Shown piece after piece: positions 958 to 49,967 of a stretch of 64,000 bases of DNA (the first letter of the stretch is position 1; every line of letters begins with the position of its first letter). This DNA comes from Chrysoperla carnea (Eukaryota > Arthropoda > Insecta > Neuroptera > Chrysopidae). Both the position numbers and the translations under genes were made by a program. The stretch covers positions 79,450,520-79,514,519 of the forward strand of contig NC_058339.1 of assembly GCF_905475395.1 (NCBI RefSeq), read 5' to 3'. The notes beneath the pieces were generated by a model. The model had not been told where the DNA came from. It saw only the letters and a program-made list of their open reading frames with translations, and ran no database searches.

Positions 958-23509
<22,552 letters not shown>

Positions 23510-30928: not shown

Positions 30929-32856
<1,928 letters not shown>

Positions 32857-34898: not shown

Positions 34899-34988
34899 TC
34901 ATAAATTTTGCTCTTGTTTAAATTCTAAAGCCCATACATGCTCTGGCCATCCGGTTCGTCCTTTACTAGTTTTGTTGACTTCGTCTTT
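34899..34988 (-). CDS. Hand: Hand exon 5: conserved C-terminal tail
   Basis: Acceptor TTAGTTTCAG, 29 codons and TGA. The peptide [15 protein letters not shown] is the diagnostic Hand C-terminal motif shared with vertebrate HAND1/2. Confidence 0.93.
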   Translation of the reverse strand, partial: KDEVNKTSKGRTGWPEHVWALEFKQEQNL

Positions 34989-37900: not shown

Positions 37901-40900
37901 AGACTATTGATTATGTTTTAAGGACCGGGCAATAAGGAACTAAGACGTTCACGGGTTTTTACAGCAGGAATCGTTCAATAAGTTATTAAGGAAAAAAAAT
38001 GCGAAGCGCTATTAAATTAGACGGTGGAAATTAAAGTTAGGGGTGAAAAAGGCAATCCCTTTTTTTTATACCATGCATATACGTAATATGCAAGGTATAC
38101 TAAGTTTAGTTCCAAGTTTGTAACGCTTAAAAATATTGATGCCACGCACAAAATTTTGCTATAGGTGTTCATAGAATCACCTAATTAGTCCGTTTCCGGT
38201 TGTCCGTCCGTCCGTCCGTCTGTGGATACGATAACTCAAAAACGAAAAAAGATATCGAGCTGAAATTTTTACAGTGTATTCAGGACGTAAAAAGTGAGGT
38301 CGAGTTCGTAAATGAGCATCATAGGTCAATTGGGTCTTGGGTACGTGGATCCATCTTGTAAACCGTTAGAGATAGAACAAAAATTTAAATGTAAAAAATG
38401 TTCCTTATATCAAAAAATAAACAACATTTGCTTGAAACATTTTTTCGTAAACATCACTGTTTACCCGTGAGGGTGCCAATTAGGCGGAAATTTTATAGTA
38501 TGTACCATACTTGAATATCAGTTATGTGTCACATGTATGTATGTGTTATGTGATAAAGAAATCAACACTGACTATGCATGGTATTTCAATTAATTCAGTC
38601 AATTGTTTGTTTGTAAACAAAGCAAAATTTCGTTAAATTTTATATAAAAAGATAGCAATAAATTAAAACCTCTCGACTCTGCTCAAACTGAATACTTAAT
38701 AAATTTTTTAATTTTTTGTTTTTAATGACAAAAATAATTATTCTCCTGATTGGCTGCCTATTTTAATTAATAGCTAACTATCCGTGCATCGGATCAAAAA
38801 ATGAAAGAGGACTTTTCGTCTTAGAATTTTCTATCTGATGCAACAAAAACGTGCGGTACTTATGGGACACCCGGTATTTTCGATAGTAGCACTAAATTCG
38901 GTTGTTCACAAAAGAAGAATACACTCTTCATCAATCAAACAAGTAAATATATACTCGAATCGGTATTCGGTATGTATATAAAAAAAGTTATTTTCGTCAA
39001 TTAACGATTTAAATAAATGTAAACATTATCGTATATATAATATAGGTATTTAAATGTTTATATAAATAAAATTTTCAAAAAACAGACCTCACAATTTTAC
39101 GATCGTCAATAATAATATATTTCAATTGTGATCATTAATCTTTTCATATGTAGGTATATATTTATTGTATATTAATTACCATAATATATTCTTCATTTTA
39201 ACTTTTTGAAAATGTTTTATTATTTTTATTATTAATAAATAAAAATGAATTTTACTTTGATATTATCTTTTATTTATATAGTTCATATTTATATTAATAC
39301 TAGCTGCACCCTTCACGCTTCGCTGTGGCACATTTGAGCTGTGTAAAAATTTGAGCTGAATCGATGCAGAACTTTTTGAGTTTTTGAAGCGTACACAAAC
39401 AAACATAACATTTTTATATATATAGATTTGAAATTTTATGATTTTCAATAAATATGAATTCGAATATTAATATCCCGTTCAAATTTGCAACTAATTTTAA
39501 ATGTAAGACACGTTGTTGAAAATACGCATATTTTTCCTAATTTCAAAACTTATTAAAAAAATTTAATAAAAAATATTTTTAAAGGCAAGCTTTTATTTTA
39601 CACAACTGAGTATAAAATATCATACCCATGCATAGGACATCATCAGTTATATACATTTATTATACTACCGATAACCATACTATACATATGTACTTAGAAA
39701 AAGCAACAAGCGTGTTTTTTAGTTTTTTAAACGATATTCTTATGTTATTTTACGATAAATCCACGTTGCAAAACATTTAAAACTTAATATTTCATTGGGA
39801 AAATTAAAAATGTTGTATTTATTTAAATTTTCGTGTCAGGGAAAAATTACAGCAATGAGTTTGAGAAAAAAGATGCGCTGTTGATGACTCGGTTAAATAG
39901 TCTGATATGTTGAAAGCCCTTTCCACATTAATGAAAATGACAGGGGGGAAGTTCAGAGAGAATAATGCAGAGCTCTAAGATTCGTAGAAATAAACTTACC
40001 TCTTGATTATTCGACTTAGATTTTCGATTGATTTCTCGTACCGATTCCGGTGTACAGATTGTAATATCACCAGTAATTTCTTTATAACATCCAGACGATA
40101 ATGTAGTATTATTATTCCGTGAATTATGCCGATGTCCACCACCTAAATTCTCAATTTCAGCACAAAATCCATTACTTGGTTTATCACCATCCAACACCGC
40201 TTTTAAATATGAAATGTATGATGTTGCCAAACGTAATGTTTTTATCTACAAAAAATGTAAATAAAACAGCCAATCTATATAAAATATTAATTGAATAAAA
40301 TACGACTTTAAATTATTAATAATTTTGTACTTTTATAAAAAGGGCTTAAATTTTTTTCAGGGCCGAATATAATATTTAAAAATTTTTGATTTCACCCTCA
40401 ACGTGTCTTGAATAAATGAATGATTCCCGAATAAGTGGTAGAATTAAGTATGGGGTCTCACCGTGTAAGGATTTGAGACATTTTTATTATTTTAAAAGGG
40501 TCATTCGTGCGTTAACTATTAATGGAGTTAATATTATTATTTTTCCAAAAATCAATATCTAGAGAACCGTTTATTTTATCTCAGTGCATACGCCAGTCAT
40601 ATTCTATATTAAAATCGCAAAATGCGATGTAAAGCTGCTGTGCTACCTGCGTAAAAAACTTTTTTTTGCAATTCAATGCAAATATTTTCATTTTTCCAAA
40701 TTTTTTTTATAAGGCTCACTAGTTGAAGCTACGTACAAATCTTTATTTCTCTATCTTTTATATTTTTGGAGAAAATGCACTCCAAACTTTTGACTGAATT
40801 TGCTCCCTCGCGAGAAAACAATGATGTTGACGAAAAATTGTTTCAAACAAAAGTTGTTTATTTTTTTATAAGTTACATTTTTTACCTTTAAACTTTTGTT

Positions 40901-43900
40901 CCATTTCTAGCGTGTTAACATAAGCAAAACTCAAAATTTTAACATTTCTAAAAACCATGTAAATTTTTCAAGCATCATATCTCAAAAACTATTACAGTAG
41001 CAACTAATGTCAGAACTCACAGTTTTTGAATAGAACTTAAAAAAACTTAAAAAAGTCCGGAAATTTTGGAGTTTTTCACGCAGTACGCAGATAACACAAC
41101 CTTTTTTTGCTTGCAAAACGTAGTTTCACAAACCCTTAAGGCGTCAAAATAACAAAAAAAAAAAAAAAATCAACTTTACATCGCGTTTTGCGATTTTAGT
41201 ATTTTTTTTTTGTAAATTTTACTGCCGTATTTTTCATTTCCCTCTAGATAAAACATCTCTAGATAAACGTGACGAAACATATCCTGAAACCTGAACAAAT
41301 AACAGTGGTTCTAAAGTACAGTACAATCTCACTAATCCGGCACTATTAAAAACCAGACGATTCCGAATTATTTGAATGTTCGTATTACTGGATTTTCGGT
41401 AATTTTTTCAAAAATTCGATTGCCGGAAGGTGCCGGGATTATTGGACGAGTCGGCCTATTATATATATTATTTATTAGTATCGGATTAGTGAGATTGTAC
41501 TGTATGTTTTGATAGATAATAAAATTTGAAATAACTAATCAGCTTATGTCTGCATAAAATAGAAATAAAGAAGATAAAGTGTAATTATTCGGCCCTGATA
41601 AAAATAAATATTTATATGTATATTTAATAATAATAAAAATGACTTATAAATAAAAAAACAAACCTTAGAAAGTTTGGTATCAGCTGGGACACTAGGTATA
41701 CAATCACGTAGATCAGCATATGCATTGTTGATCTGCATATGAAATATTGAGAGACAATCACACATTGTTTTTTGATTTTTGATTTTTTTTAATTTGATTA
41801 CGAATGAGAAGCTTAACTTTTAGAAATAAAATAAATATGTATAAAATATTTCAATAGAAACAAACCTTTGAAAGTTTCGTATCAGCTGGAACACTCGGTA
41901 TACAATCACGTAAATCTGCGTATGCGTTATTTATACTTTGTGTACGACGTCGTTCTTTTTTATTTGCTGTATTTCGTTTTTTTACAACCCGTACAAATGG
42001 TTCGGCGTTGCCATTTGTTGGAGGGCATTGTAGCGATTTCGGTCCATTTTGTTGTTCGGTTGTGGAAAGCGTGTTTGCTGATGGTTGTCCAGTGGAGAGA
42101 ATTACATTGGGATTGTTAAAAGTGTTGAGAAGTGGATTACAATTGTTTTCTGGAAATAAACCGAATAATTGTCGATATAGATGTCTACAGATTTCTATTT
42201 TCTAGGATATTAATGCATAATTCCGAGAATCGAAAAAATTTTAGTGGAATTTTTAATGAATTCTCTAATTTTCGGAAAACGTTAAGATAAACGGTAAGAC
42301 TAAAAGAATCGAAGAGTGATTTTAAAAGATAGATGCGGTGAATAAAAGATAGATGTAGGTATCCGGCGGATTACAAAGCAGCCTCGATATTCAATTTGTC
42401 AATATCGATATACAATTTTTAAATAAATAAAATAACTCATTCATAGTAGAAATAAATTTCCAATGGTGTTATATTCAGTGTTCAGAGTGCATTTATTAAC
42501 ACAATAATTTTCGCCCACAATATCGAATTACAAAATAAATAATTTGTTTTAGTATATCATTAGTTTATTTATTAATTCATTTATTTTATTTATTTTTTTT
42601 TTAAAATTATTTTTTTTTAATTTTTATCGCTGTTAGTATTTAAATTTTATTTCGATAAATAATTAATAATACAATAAATAATTAAAAATAATAAACTAAT
42701 TTTATTATTGGCATAAAAATAATTACCATGTTTTTTCTAAAATTTTACGAATTTATTAACTATTCAATACCTTGGAAATTGAAAAGAAAATTTAAAGAAA
42801 ATCATTTGAAATTTAGACTCAAAATAGGAGTTTGTAACACATTCTTTTTATCGTTACACGTTGTTTTTGAATTTATCCAAATTTTTAACCCTTCTTAAAC
42901 GTTCATAAGCTTCGCTTTTGCACATGTCCGTAAAATTTTGTATGGAAATCATTTGGTAGAGATTTTTACAAAAATACCTTTAAGTTAATTGCCGACTTTT
43001 TTGAAAACAATTTATAGTAATGTTGTATTGAGAGTATTGTACAGAAGTGAAAAATTTTGTAAGAAAATTGGAAAACTAGATAAAAAACTAAGAAATCTGG
43101 ACAAAATTGAAAATAGAACAAGTGAAAAGAAACAATTGACTGAGTTAGTTGTTGAAATACCATGTATACACAGTGTTGATTACGGAATCGTTTGTTTTTT
43201 CAGGCCATGTAAGTAAAGAGAGATAGCCTGCCATACATACATGCCACACATACATGACTGATTCCAATATAATACATGCTATACAATGTTCGAACTTGCG
43301 CCCCCATGGGTAAATAGTGATGTTTCGAAAAAATGTTTTAAACAAAAGTTGTTTATTTTTTTTATAAAAAACACTTCTTACATTTAAACTTTTGTTCTAT
43401 CTCTAACGGTTTACAAGATGGGTCCCACGGACCCAAGACCCAAGACCCAATTGACCTATTTTGCTCATTTACGAACTTGACCTCACTTTTTACGACCTGA
43501 ACACGCTGTAAAAATTTCAACTTTCAAAATTTTGAAATTTTAATATCTTTTTTCGTTTTTGAGTTATCGTGACAGACAGACGGACGGACGGACAACCGTA
43601 AATGGACTAATTAGGTGATTTTATGAACACCTATTCACACCGTGTGTGAGTTTCATTGGAGGCGTTTCCATGGTAACGATACACTACTTTAATTATACTG
43701 TCTAACAAATTTAAATAAATAATTATGATAATTTTACATTTGAAAAATAATGTTTATGCAATTTGATTTCTTATTTTCACAATTTTTTTGCATTAAGTTT
43801 AATTAATTACTGTTTTTCTATAATTTAAAGGTGACATTCACTATAACATTTACATGTAAAGAATTGCAAATTAGTCATAACAGCCTCGTTTAACGCCAAA

Positions 43901-46553
43901 ATTTTTCACTGGAAGAACTGGCATCGATTTTATTGTCCCTACTATAACTACGCACACAACGAATACCGAAATTTTGTTCATAGCATCAATATTTTCAATA
44001 TTTTTAAGCGTTACAAACGTTGGGACTAAACTTAGTATACCTTGATATATTTCATATCTACATGGTATAAAAATAAACACACTTACCATGATGATTCTTC
44101 AAATGATTCGTGTAATGTGTATTATTACAATTATCATCCAAATGTGCTGTTCCATAATTTGTGGATGTAATATTATTTGAATAGATTTGTGGATGATAAT
44201 TATTTGTAGATGTTGGTGATATACAAAATGGATTTGTTGAATTATTATTATTGTTATTATTACATAATCGTTGTGTAGATTTATTTAACGATAAATCATC
44301 TGATGAAATATCTGTATTACAACAATCTGGTGAATGCATTCCACTATCTGTCCAATATTTTTCTTCATCATTTGGCGAACAGATTACCATCGCACCTGAG
44401 AGGAAAAATATAACTCAAATGTAGATAATGCAAATATTATAGGCGAGATAGGTATTGAAAAGGAAACTAATTGAAATTTGGAAATTTGAATACAAAACAA
44501 ATCATGTTTTGACGGGTATCAAAAATTATTACCTTTATTATTATATAAGAAACGCTGGGAAAAATTGCAATTAAAAATATCAATGTAGAAATATCAATAT
44601 TTGGAAAGTACCGAAACTATCACATTAATAAAGAGTGATATAGAAATATAATTCTAAGAGTAAGGCAAGTTAAAGTTTTTGGATCCGATACTATTAGGTT
44701 ATGTTAGGTTATATTGGCTGTCCACGAAGGACACATTTAGGCTAGACCTTTCCGCTGATAATTTTATTTATCAGCTCCTCAATTTCAGAGGCTGAGTGCA
44801 CCTCCTTCATACATATACCATGCACTACACTAGCCCATCGCAACTATTAATTAAATTGATTTTGTTGCGACGGCGGGAATCGAACCCGCTACCCTAAGCA
44901 TACCGCGGACGGAATTGGTTATGCCTTAAGCAACTGAGCTAATAGGGCGACCGTCCGCTACTATTAACAAAATGGAAATTTTAATAATGAGAATTGCCCA
45001 TAAAAAAAAGAAAAAAAACAGCAATAAAAAAAGTAAAAATAAATAAAAATAAAAAAAATTAAATTAAATTAAATTAAAAAACATGAAAAGTCGTATTAAG
45101 ATATTTACAAAACTTATCGTCAGACTATTTTTTCCCAATTTTAGCAAAATGTACGAGATTAAATTTATAAAAGTAGAAGTTATTACTCTTAATCTATAGA
45201 AGCTGGACCAAAATTATCGAAAAGGCGTTAATATTTGTTATTCAAAATATATGTTCAAATTCCAATTTTTCCAATCCCTATATATTATAAATGTGAAAGT
45301 AAGGCTTGTTTTTTTGTTTGCGTGTTTGTTATGCTTTCACACAAAAACTACCAAATGGATTTAAATGAAACTCTTGAATAATATAGCTCATATGTCAGAA
45401 TAATACATGAATTATAATTTAAAAAGATATAAAAAAAATTAAATTTAATCTGACATTTTACTGCCCCATCTATGATCACCATTTTAAACCATAAATTAAA
45501 TATTTCTGTAAAAATAATAAATGTAAAACAATTCATGGCCGTCTTTTCTGATAGACTCAATGAATTATGACTATTTTACATCTAAAAAAAATTGAAAACT
45601 GTACACCTTACTATTATTTCGAGTGTTATGGAAGGGAGATAAATGAGAGAAAGGGAGGTGACTGCTATAATGCAGTGGTCTTTACCAATCATTTCTTTTA
45701 AGACCAGTGCTGCGGGCGGGTATCAAACTAGTCAACTACAAAATTTCAAAAAATTTCAAACAAAATCTAAGTGGTCAAATAAATAAATAATTTAATTAGA
45801 GCACGCGTGTCAAAGTTACATTTTTTTTCTAAACTTTCACAAATATTTCATCAACTCTTTTTTTTTTATGAATCTTTATATAGGAAGCCTACCTATAAAC
45901 TACTGTACGTAAAGTTAAAATGTAAACAAAACATCCTTCTGTTTAGTAATCTTCCCTCCATGAAAGAACAGTAATCCACAATATTATTTATTTTTGAAAT
46001 ATTTTAAGAAGTAAACATTCTACAAAATTCAGTAGATAATTTTAATGTTACATTTTATTAACATAAACAGGACGTAAAAACGTAATAAATATATTTTTGA
46101 TAGATTTCAGGTGTATATTTTTATTTGTATTTTAATCAAAATATTATAAAACTGTATAAAGCAATGATGGATTTAGGCCTACACCCGTGAGGCCTGGGTC
46201 TAGGGCGGCAGAATTTGAAGGGCGGCAAAATTTCGTGGATAAATTTTTATAAACCGTTTAGAAAATCGATATGCATTTTTCACAAAAGACGTAGGTATAA
46301 AAGGGTGATTAATTGATACCTAAATATATTTTTGGTATCATTTTTAAATGTTTATTTTGAGTAAATTTTATCTGAGTACCTACTTACCATTAGTATATAA
46401 ATCCATTTTATAATTATTATGCGTACAGTGTGATTGAATCACTTCCATACTATTATCATGAATAATAGGAGGTGATTCTTCTTCAGCCGATAAAACATCG
46501 GTACCATTTCCAATATATTCCTCTGATGACCAACTTCTTCCGTAACTATGCAT
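34899..46553 (-). CDS. Hand: bHLH transcription factor Hand
   Basis: Class II bHLH factor of the Hand family, in flies needed in heart, visceral muscle and hematopoietic cells; binds E-boxes as a heterodimer with Da/E proteins. Exons (minus strand): 46553-46388, 44395-44087, 42149-41866, 40245-40000, 34988-34899, with phases 1, 1, 0, 0, total 364 aa. The basic region [14 protein letters not shown] is at about 217-230, helix 1 plus loop [10 protein letters not shown]...TKLSK at 231-253, helix 2 [18 protein letters not shown] from 254. The last exon encodes the family signature [16 protein letters not shown]. The N-terminal 216 residues are long, Ser/Asn rich, with a run of seven Asn near residue 110. 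The start ATG at 46553 is the first in-frame one. Exons 3-5 are certain; exons 1-2 rest on phase and strand. An additional 69-nt exon-like copy lies at 41664-41732. Confidence 0.92.
36400..36640 (+). repeat. Degenerate satellite-related sequence
   Basis: GGGTTAAAATTACCTTAAGT followed by GAGTTTTATCGAAATTGGAA and, further on, ACTCGATTTATGGGGTAA and AAATCGAGTTTA repeat the arm motifs of the 306-bp satellite. A local inverted pair (ATAAAACTCGATTTAT and AAAAAATCGAGTTT) is present too. Confidence 0.5.
36940..37120. repeat. GC-richer block, possible transposon remnant
   Basis: A 180-bp island with many CG dinucleotides inside AT-rich intron. The segment GCCGAAAGTTCGGCAGATTT and GCCGAAACCGAAACTG is a nested hairpin of the sort found at the ends of some hAT-like elements. 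No ORF of note was recognised. Confidence 0.35.
38066..38612 (+). repeat. Dispersed repeat family 1, complete-looking copy
   Basis: Best full-length representative (about 547 bp): terminal TTTATACCATGCATAT, TTTAGTTCCAAGTTTGTAAC, CACCTAATTAGTCCG, the CCGTCCGTCCGTCTG tract, GATATCGAGCTGAAATTTTT, AAAGTGAGGTCGAGTTCG, GGTCAATTGGGTCTTGGG, CTTGTAAACCGTTAGAGAT, ACATCACTGTTTACCCGTGA and terminal ATGCATGGTATTTCAA...CAGTCAATTG. No ORF. Confidence 0.9.
39299..39426 (+). repeat. ACTAGC-type dispersed repeat, short copy
   Basis: ACTAGCTGCACCCTTCACGC followed by TCGCTGTGG and a 3' end with CAAACAAACATAACATTT and a TATATAGATTT tail, like the longer copies at 10 and 45 kb. Confidence 0.6.
40000..40245 (-). 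CDS. Hand: Hand exon 4: helix 2 and downstream region
   Basis: 82 codons, phase 0 on both sides, acceptor TTTTTTGTAG, donor GTAAGT. Helix 2 [20 protein letters not shown] is followed by a linker containing [10 protein letters not shown] and [15 protein letters not shown]. Without splicing, the frame would run on to a stop at 39928. Confidence 0.93.
40611..41206. mobile_element. Possible element with ~25-bp terminal inverted repeats
   Basis: AAAATCGCAAAATGCGATGTAAAG at the left and CTTTACATCGCGTTTTGCGA at the right are inverted repeats about 600 bp apart. The interior carries a family 1 fragment (about 40,795-40,920: AAAGTTGTTTATTTTTTTAT, TTAAACTTTTGTTCC). Whether the pair marks a mobile element or a local inverted duplication is open. 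Confidence 0.4.
41319..41502. mobile_element. pogo/Tigger-like MITE
   Basis: 184 bp with terminal inverted repeats CAGTACAATCTCACTAATCC at the left and its near-perfect complement (ending GGATTAGTGAGATTGTACTG) at the right, each flanked by TA (41317-41318 and 41503-41504). CAG ends, TA target sites and a TAATCCGG-type subterminal motif fit the pogo/Tigger group of Tc1-mariner. No coding capacity. Confidence 0.88.
41664..41732 (-). CDS. Hand: Hand duplicate exon: helix 1 plus loop (candidate cassette exon)
   Basis: A 69-nt stretch encodes the same 23 residues ([10 protein letters not shown] to TKLSK) as the end of exon 3, with 10 nucleotide differences, every one silent. It is preceded by a plausible acceptor (TTGTCTCTCA...CATATGCAG) and followed by the same donor as exon 3 (AAG/GTTTGT). 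It begins and ends in phase 0, so inclusion between exons 3 and 4 keeps the frame and doubles helix 1 plus loop. The frame is also open upstream to ATG codons at 41765 and 41738, so transcription starting here would give helix-loop-helix without the basic region. Flanking intron sequence is not conserved with exon 3. Use in transcripts is inference. Confidence 0.7.
41866..42149 (-). CDS. Hand: Hand exon 3: basic region, helix 1 and loop
   Basis: Acceptor TTTATTTCCAG at 42150, donor GTTTGT at 41865. Phase 1 in, phase 0 out (94 codons plus two bases). Ends with [22 protein letters not shown] and helix 1. The upstream part is Asn/Pro rich. Confidence 0.93.
43132..44073 (-). repeat. Dispersed repeat family 1 split by a MITE
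   Basis: Runs from the CAATTGACTGAGTTAGTTG block at 43,136 to the CACCTATT break at 43633, then resumes after the MITE at 43964 through ACCGAAATTTTGTTCATAGC to the terminal TACATGGTATAAAA. The two parts rejoin exactly at the family's TTTTGG-TATAGG segment. Confidence 0.88.
43634..43963 (-). mobile_element. TA-flanked MITE carrying an RFX X-box, copy 1
   Basis: 330 bp, ends TTCACACCGTGTGTGAG and (other end) CGCACACAACGAA, flanked by TA at 43632-43633 and 43964-43965. It is related throughout to the copy at 54564-54960 in opposite orientation. Weak terminal inverted repeats and TA targets suggest a Tc1/mariner-type MITE. It contains GTTTCCATGGTAAC at 43664-43677. It inserted into a family 1 repeat, so it is the younger of the two. 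Confidence 0.85.
44087..44395 (-). CDS. Hand: Hand exon 2: Asn-rich N-terminal region
   Basis: Acceptor TTTTTCCTCTCAG, donor GTAAGT, 103 codons in phase 1/1. Contains the acidic/serine segment [17 protein letters not shown], which looks like a transactivation or phosphorylation region, then seven Asn and many Asn/Thr/His residues. Included because strand, phase on both sides and strong splice sites agree; no homology was recognised. Confidence 0.78.
44697..44958 (-). mobile_element. tRNA-derived SINE with TTAGG-like tail
   Basis: Read on the minus strand, the head has an A box (TAGCTCAGTTGCTTAAGGC) and a B box (GGTTCGATTCC), the internal RNA polymerase III promoter of a tRNA. The body (GCTGAAATTGAGGAGCTG region, TCCTTCGTGGACAGCCAATA) follows, then a tail TAACCTAACATAACC. 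Both sides carry TACTATTA (44689-44696 and 44959-44966), an 8-bp target-site duplication. The acceptor-stem halves do not pair, so it is not a functional tRNA gene. Confidence 0.9.
45272..45735 (-). repeat. ACTAGC-type dispersed repeat, inverted long copy
   Basis: Reverse-strand counterpart of 10064-10513: TTATAAATGTGAAAGTAAGG at the left end, TATAGCTCATATGTCAGA, CGAGTGTTATGGAAGG, GGTCTTTACCAATCATTTC and CTAGTCAACTA at the right end. Confidence 0.72.
46388..46553 (-). CDS. Hand: Hand exon 1: N-terminus
   Basis: ATG at 46553, 55 codons plus one base to a GTAAGT donor. The peptide starts [13 protein letters not shown] and is acidic near ADE-type residues ([10 protein letters not shown]). The same frame is open a further 19 codons upstream but only from a TTG, so the ATG is preferred. 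Phase 1 matches exon 2. Confidence 0.72.
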
Positions 46554-49438: not shown

Positions 49439-49967
49439 CTGTGTCCAAAAAATAAGATGACATAAGAATTTAAACTGCGCGAGTTTGTTGTGCATTATGA
49501 ATTACTTCCGCCCGGCCAAACAGACAACAAAGAATATGCGTAACGCTATCTACCTAAAAAGGCCGGAATTGTGGAAAGACAATTCGTGGTATTTACACCA
49601 CGATAATGCATCATCTCATACTGCACTCATAATTCGTGATCATTTCGACAAAAATTCAACCCATATTGTTCCGCAACTACCGTATTCACCTGATCTGGTG
49701 GCGTGCTACTTCTGGCTGTCCAGGAAGCTCAAAAGACCGCTCCGGCGACATCGTTTTGATACGAAAGAGGAGATTAAAGTCACAGCGAAGACGGAACTGA
49801 AGGCAATCCCGAAAAATTACTGCAACCAGTGTTTCGAAGATTGGAAAATCCGTTGGCATAAGTGCATTGCATCGGGAGGGGATTACTTTGAAGGAGATGA
49901 AATTGATTTAGAAGAATAAATAAAGAATTTAAAATAAATACAATGTCACCTTATTTTTTGGGCACAG
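49439..49967 (+). pseudogene. Internally deleted mariner element with broken transposase
   Basis: Terminal inverted repeats CTGTGTCCAAAAAATAAGAT and (right end, complement) CTGTGCCCAAAAAATAAGGT, flanked by TA at 49437-49438 and 49968-49969. The interior keeps only the C-terminal half of a mariner transposase: a VHYELLPPGQT segment in one frame, then after a frameshift near 49,530 a 3' frame to a TAA at 49917-49919 with HHDNASSH (second catalytic Asp) and YSPDLVACYFWL. In active mariners the latter has CD(F/Y); here the third Asp is Tyr. Most of the N-terminal half is deleted, so it cannot encode active transposase, though its ends could still be recognised in trans. Confidence 0.9.

Follow-up and report, generated by a model that had tools for sequence, protein, structure and literature searches.

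The locus and its neighbourhood

The window is a stretch of 64,000 nucleotides of the Chrysoperla carnea genome (C3:79450520-79514519 of 559,487,470 bases), and a Hand gene with five coding exons lies on its minus strand (Table 1). The joined coding sequence of exons 1 to 5, from an assumed start codon, is open to the stop and encodes 364 residues; the donor of exon 1 is AATG/GTAAGT, where the slash marks the exon border. The gene encodes a bHLH protein of the group A type, with a full Pfam HLH match (5.2e-21) on the peptide of exons 3 and 4 and with Twist1 as its best relative in the PDB (7.9e-14). Exon 5 encodes the C-terminal motif KGRTGWPxHVWALE, which we take to be typical of Hand.

A search of the whole genome with the peptide of exons 3 and 4 gave 16 matches. 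Three of them are at this locus (exon 4, exon 3, and an extra copy of part of exon 3), and the 13 elsewhere have lower similarity; two of these 13 were read, and both resemble other bHLH genes. A second Hand exon 3 or exon 4 was not among these matches. As far as these two exons show, a second Hand gene is rejected as the source of the extra copy.

Two other bHLH genes, at C2:58868094 and C1:121869539 and presumably Paraxis-like and Ptf1a-like, carry an acceptor-like site, and apparently an intron, at the S codon that directly precedes helix 1. Both sites are within about one base of the position at which the extra Hand exon starts. The site at C2:58868094 looks to be in phase 2 and one base off, and the site at C1:121869539 is ambiguous. 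These sites may reflect an old intron position in bHLH genes.

The remainder of the window contains parts of other genes and several repeats. Exons of a 6-phosphofructo-2-kinase/fructose-2,6-bisphosphatase are found on the plus strand; the first of them matches Pfam 6PF2K (8.2e-36), and the others are presumed to belong to the same gene by likeness. Downstream of Hand is the first part of a ubiquitin-conjugating enzyme (Pfam UQ_con, 2.5e-18), which we take to be UBE2E-like. There is also an open frame of 152 codons whose product presumably resembles a mariner-type transposase in its catalytic half.

The intron between the extra exon and exon 4 contains a 188-bp element that has TA at both termini and 34-nt inverted ends of 91% complementarity. 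It has at least 62 matches in the genome, itself and its own ends included (40 of the 78 first-look candidates were scored), indicating that it is a MITE-like repeat. Most of the same intron, including this element, is enclosed by 20-nt inverted ends with CAGGGCCGAATA, which are 1216 nt apart and 95% complementary. The enclosed region is possibly a nested insertion derived from a DNA transposon, and without it the intron would have only about 160-180 nt. At the scale of the genome, six units of TTAGG in a row were found 133 times in the forward and 190 times in the reverse orientation (overlaps within arrays counted), and the reversed control gave 0. Among the matches listed, all are on C1, at 17.7-132.1 Mb of 140 Mb, suggesting that short telomere-type arrays are present inside this chromosome.

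Table 1. Features of the Hand locus and of the rest of the window (positions within the window; a slash marks the exon border).
Feature	Position	Strand	Evidence or remark
Hand exon 1, coding part (MHSYGR...YTNG)	46388..46553	-	open frame; start codon assumed; phase-1 end
Hand exon 2	44087..44395	-	acceptor, donor, frame; phase-1 end
Hand exon 3: basic region, helix 1, loop	41866..42149	-	Pfam HLH PF00010 1.8e-12; frame
First copy of the 69-nt helix 1-loop unit (last 69 nt of exon 3)	41866..41934	-	
Candidate alternative donor inside exon 3	42104..42105	-	CCCAAT/GTAATT; phase 0
Intron, exon 3 to extra exon (133 nt)	41733..41865	-	G+C 21%
Candidate start ATG in frame with the extra exon	41763..41765	-	possible form without basic region
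Extra 69-nt exon, second helix 1-loop copy	41664..41732	-	phase 0/0; own acceptor; donor AAG/GTTTGTTT
Intron, extra exon to exon 4 (1418 nt)	40246..41663	-	G+C 28%; contains inverted-repeat elements
188-bp element	41317..41504		34-nt inverted ends
Region enclosed by 20-nt inverted ends	40350..41605		contains the 188-bp element
Hand exon 4: helix 2 and downstream	40000..40245	-	genome search match; frame
Hand exon 5: C-terminal motif	34899..34988	-	frame to stop
6-phosphofructo-2-kinase/fructose-2,6-bisphosphatase exons	19163..21655	+	Pfam 6PF2K (first exon)
Ubiquitin-conjugating enzyme, first part	32494..32856	-	Pfam UQ_con
152-codon open frame	49461..49919	+	

A duplicated helix 1-loop unit

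The part of exon 3 that encodes helix 1 and the loop is present a second time in the following intron. The two copies encode an identical 23-residue peptide. Ten of the 69 bases are different, all of them silently: nine are in third codon positions, and the remaining one is in a first position (TTA/CTA). Translation and comparison thus bear out the preliminary description, made from the DNA letters, which had given the same positions, 23 identical residues, and ten silent differences. It had also ascribed to the extra copy an acceptor of its own, a donor like that of exon 3, and phase 0 at both ends, and this holds as well. The acceptor is ...TTTCATATGCAG, directly before the first exon base, and the donor is the same as that of exon 3 for 8 intron bases.

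The recognizable duplicated unit is the exon together with its donor. A 96-base DNA query around the extra copy, searched against the whole genome at E up to 1, matched itself and the end of exon 3 (E = 1.3e-18). The match to exon 3 begins at base 41732, the first after the acceptor, and it ends 8 nt beyond the donor. An ungapped repeat finder reports a pair of 108 nt at 77% (41625-41732 and 41827-41934), which reaches 39 nt into AT-rich intron sequence on the donor side. Local alignments of the flanks were not above those of shuffled sequences (p 0.12, 0.09, 0.80, and 0.96 in four comparisons with 300 shuffles each), and a duplicated unit extending far into the introns is therefore unsupported. 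The G+C content is 39% in the extra exon and 38% in the exon 3 copy (see Table 1 for the introns on either side of the extra exon). With a homologous neighbour, both splice sites, and a compatible phase, the extra copy has the properties of a tandem duplicated exon.

Constraint on the protein sequence

The pattern of differences suggests that both copies have been under selection for their protein sequence. Comparison of the copies by NG86 gives a dN of 0 and a dS of 1.43, the latter being very rough and near saturation with only 23 codons. The preliminary description had argued for strong constraint from the expectation that about three quarters of random changes would alter an amino acid. 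The constraint is upheld, but this statistic overstates it, since the changes that fall in exon 3 would be silent irrespective of the extra copy. A naive calculation (three quarters to the tenth power) puts the probability that all ten differences are silent at 1e-7 to 1e-6; it was dropped in favour of a three-class calculation and a simulation.

In the three-class model a difference is either a silent change in one of the two copies or a replacing change in the extra copy, and 20-25% of random changes are taken to be silent. If the exon 3 copy alone were constrained, ten of ten silent differences would be found with a probability of 2e-5 to 1e-4. The simulation allows multiple hits, and about 36 attempted mutations per copy lead to 10 silent differences when both copies are constrained. 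At matching silent divergence, unconstrained copies had a mean of 15 amino acid changes, with a minimum of 7 in 4000 runs, and a stop was present in 61% of the runs. Protein-level selection on both copies is thus found in a pairwise comparison within one genome, and a long-constrained copy that had arrived recently would give the same picture. The extra piece is real and constrained and can be regarded with good confidence as a coding exon, and it appears to have been coding for a long time.

Splice sites and reading frames

The extra exon can be read in frame between exons 3 and 4. Joining exon 3, the extra exon, and exon 4 leaves the frame open to the normal stop and gives 387 instead of 364 residues, an addition of 23. 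The tandem product with two helix 1 units that was proposed in the preliminary description is therefore sound with regard to its frame, but it is one of three in-frame uses of the exon that were found, and it is a predicted product only. Joining exon 2 to the extra exon and exon 4 breaks the frame and leads to an early stop, and transcripts that skip exon 3 and keep the extra exon are rejected for this reason. An internal exon 3 donor at 41936 joined to the extra exon was also rejected, since it is in phase 1.

The other two in-frame uses would bypass the basic region. Splicing from the candidate donor at 42105 to the extra exon would cut out 80 residues including the basic region, leaving 307 residues open to the stop. 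This donor is the only one of the 12 GTs inside exon 3 that scores above zero; its score is matched or beaten by 14 of the 532 decoy GTs in Hand introns. The candidate ATG at 41765 would start a product of 145 residues, also open to the stop. It has an A-rich context, and its frame is open for 29 codons upstream, which is expected by chance in about 15% of cases.

The splice sites were scored with simple matrices based on the insect consensus. The acceptor of the extra exon scores 2.16 (exon 3, 2.75; exon 4, 1.74; exon 2, 3.61; exon 5, 4.17), and 15 of the 409 decoy AGs in Hand introns reach this score. The donors of the extra exon and of exon 3 both score 3.45, a value reached by 13 of the 532 decoy GTs, and the other three Hand donors score 7.19, 7.19, and 8.18. 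Judged by these scores, the splice sites of the extra exon do not stand out. Weak splice sites are common at regulated introns. The weak donor common to both copies fits regulated splicing, although it is no proof of it. The predicted RNA fold of the region does not exceed those of shuffled sequences in stability (z 0.30), and no structure that might guide a splicing choice was found in it.

The two copies do not form a mutually exclusive pair whose members can stand in for each other. Since exon 3 carries the first copy together with the basic region, and since the joining of exon 2 to the extra exon breaks the frame, no swap is possible between the usual neighbours. Only with the alternative donor at 42105 could the copies be exchanged.

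Predicted proteins

In all three in-frame products the extra copy adjoins helix 2. The predicted form with the additional 69 nt (the +69 form) has the order basic region, helix 1, loop, helix 1, loop, helix 2. Pfam finds two HLH stretches in this protein, and the best one consists of the second helix 1 and helix 2 (profile positions 15-53 of 53); the basic region directly precedes the first helix 1. The extra exon and exon 4 by themselves encode a complete HLH without a basic region, also at profile positions 15-53, an option that lies outside the reading given in the preliminary description. The same profile positions are covered by the HLH of the 42105-donor form. This form and the one starting at ATG 41765 have an HLH without a basic region, whereas the +69 form keeps the basic region.

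The extra exon starts close to the border between the basic region and the HLH, as the alignments of Id2 and Id3 to Hand start two residues upstream of its first residue. Just before the exon border is RRRTQS, whose T and S presumably correspond to T107 and S109 of Hand1. Phosphorylation of T107 and S109 has been described for vertebrate Hand1 (PMC3084786). In the +69 form RRRTQS precedes the first helix 1 only, and the second helix 1 would thus lack phosphorylation control. The first helix 1 could still pair with helix 2, and the second unit would then bulge out as an extended loop; in that case DNA binding may persist.

Discussion

The extra copy at the Hand locus may be an old tandem duplicated coding exon that is included between exons 3 and 4 in some transcripts. 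Use as a cassette at this place is the likeliest mode and seems somewhat probable. The second helix 1 and loop would form a complete HLH with the adjacent helix 2, able to dimerize and separated from the basic region. The +69 form could then sequester E-protein or Hand partners, or it could bind DNA differently, and in either case Hand would have an internally encoded modulator resembling Id. Such an Id-like effect falls short of being probable, and the explanation as a whole, from the old duplicated exon through cassette inclusion to the Id-like modulator, has about an even chance of being correct.

Other explanations differ in how the extra copy is used or in how it arose. It could replace the exon 3 copy by means of the donor at 42105, producing an HLH of ordinary length without a basic region and hence a true Id-like isoform. 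This would explain why the copy starts near the border of the basic region and why its constraint equals that of a working helix 1, and the donor is the best GT of exon 3, is in phase 0, and gives an open product with most of the HLH profile. However, decoy GTs with scores as high are present in the introns, and phase 0 is expected by chance at one site in three, so this use is considered unlikely. A start of transcription near or in exon 3 or intron 3 would turn the extra exon into the 3' portion of a different first coding exon, translated from ATG 41765. The upstream open codons, the A-rich context, and the open product are consistent with such a start; yet an open stretch of this kind can arise by chance, and the acceptor would be needless, which makes this explanation distinctly improbable.

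The copy might also be unused at present, as a recent import or a relic of a long-constrained Hand sequence (from introgression or a lost paralogue). Its silent differences would then have accumulated elsewhere, and a dN of 0 would be explained without present use. But the homology coincides with working splice borders, and the genome-wide peptide search gave no further Hand exon 3 or exon 4 that could be the source; this origin has little probability, slightly less than the replacement of the exon 3 copy and slightly more than the alternative first exon. An assembly artefact, either an allelic or a chimeric duplication, is very improbable. The extra copy is known from one assembly, but an artefact is hard to reconcile with differences at 10 of 69 exonic bases that are all silent, with the lack of significant flank similarity past 8 nt, and with a chromosome-scale scaffold.

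The cassette exon proposed here has parallels in several known systems. The exons for E12 and E47 are homologous to each other. In E2A/TCF3 these mutually exclusive exons code for the bHLH region, and the isoforms differ there (PMC5852603). By analogy this appears to be the closest known case, as one bHLH gene has alternative exons for the bHLH region. In contrast to E12/E47, where the exons for the bHLH region are swapped, Hand duplicates only helix 1 and the loop, with the same residues in both copies, and has its first copy in one exon with the basic region. Tandem duplicated exon pairs usually differ in protein sequence, which tunes function, while both Hand copies encode the same 23 residues. 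Otherwise the Hand copies resemble tandem duplicated exons in general: they are homologous, lie next to each other, have been retained under selection, and could be used in alternative splicing; tandem duplicated exon substitutions have been described in human (PMC9741552). The HLH formed by the extra exon and exon 4 is similar to Id in having no basic region, and Id2 and Id3 align to it (E 4e-4 and 8e-4). However, Id is a separate gene, whereas the Hand HLH would be a splice form, and in the +69 form the basic region is still present upstream.

A non-exhaustive literature search found no report of a duplicated helix 1 exon or of Hand exons in lacewings or other insects. This agrees with the earlier statement that no described Hand gene is known to have a second helix 1 exon, and it weakly suggests that such a duplication has been undescribed so far. 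A 51-residue query had no relatives among viral and prokaryote contigs, as expected for those collections.

The choice of partners by bHLH proteins is usually seen as balanced by separate genes (Id/emc) or by phosphorylation. It is conceivable, though we would not call it likely, that an insect Hand gene is also the source of its antagonist, with splicing as a switch between a DNA-binding bHLH and a dimerizing HLH that is uncoupled from the basic region. The extra exon may have been frozen at the protein level for tens of millions of years. Two exons that encode one peptide and are jointly constrained provide a clean case for asking what role a duplicated helix 1 has in a bHLH dimer. If the proposal is true, an HLH form of Hand made by splicing would place an activator and a modulator in one gene.
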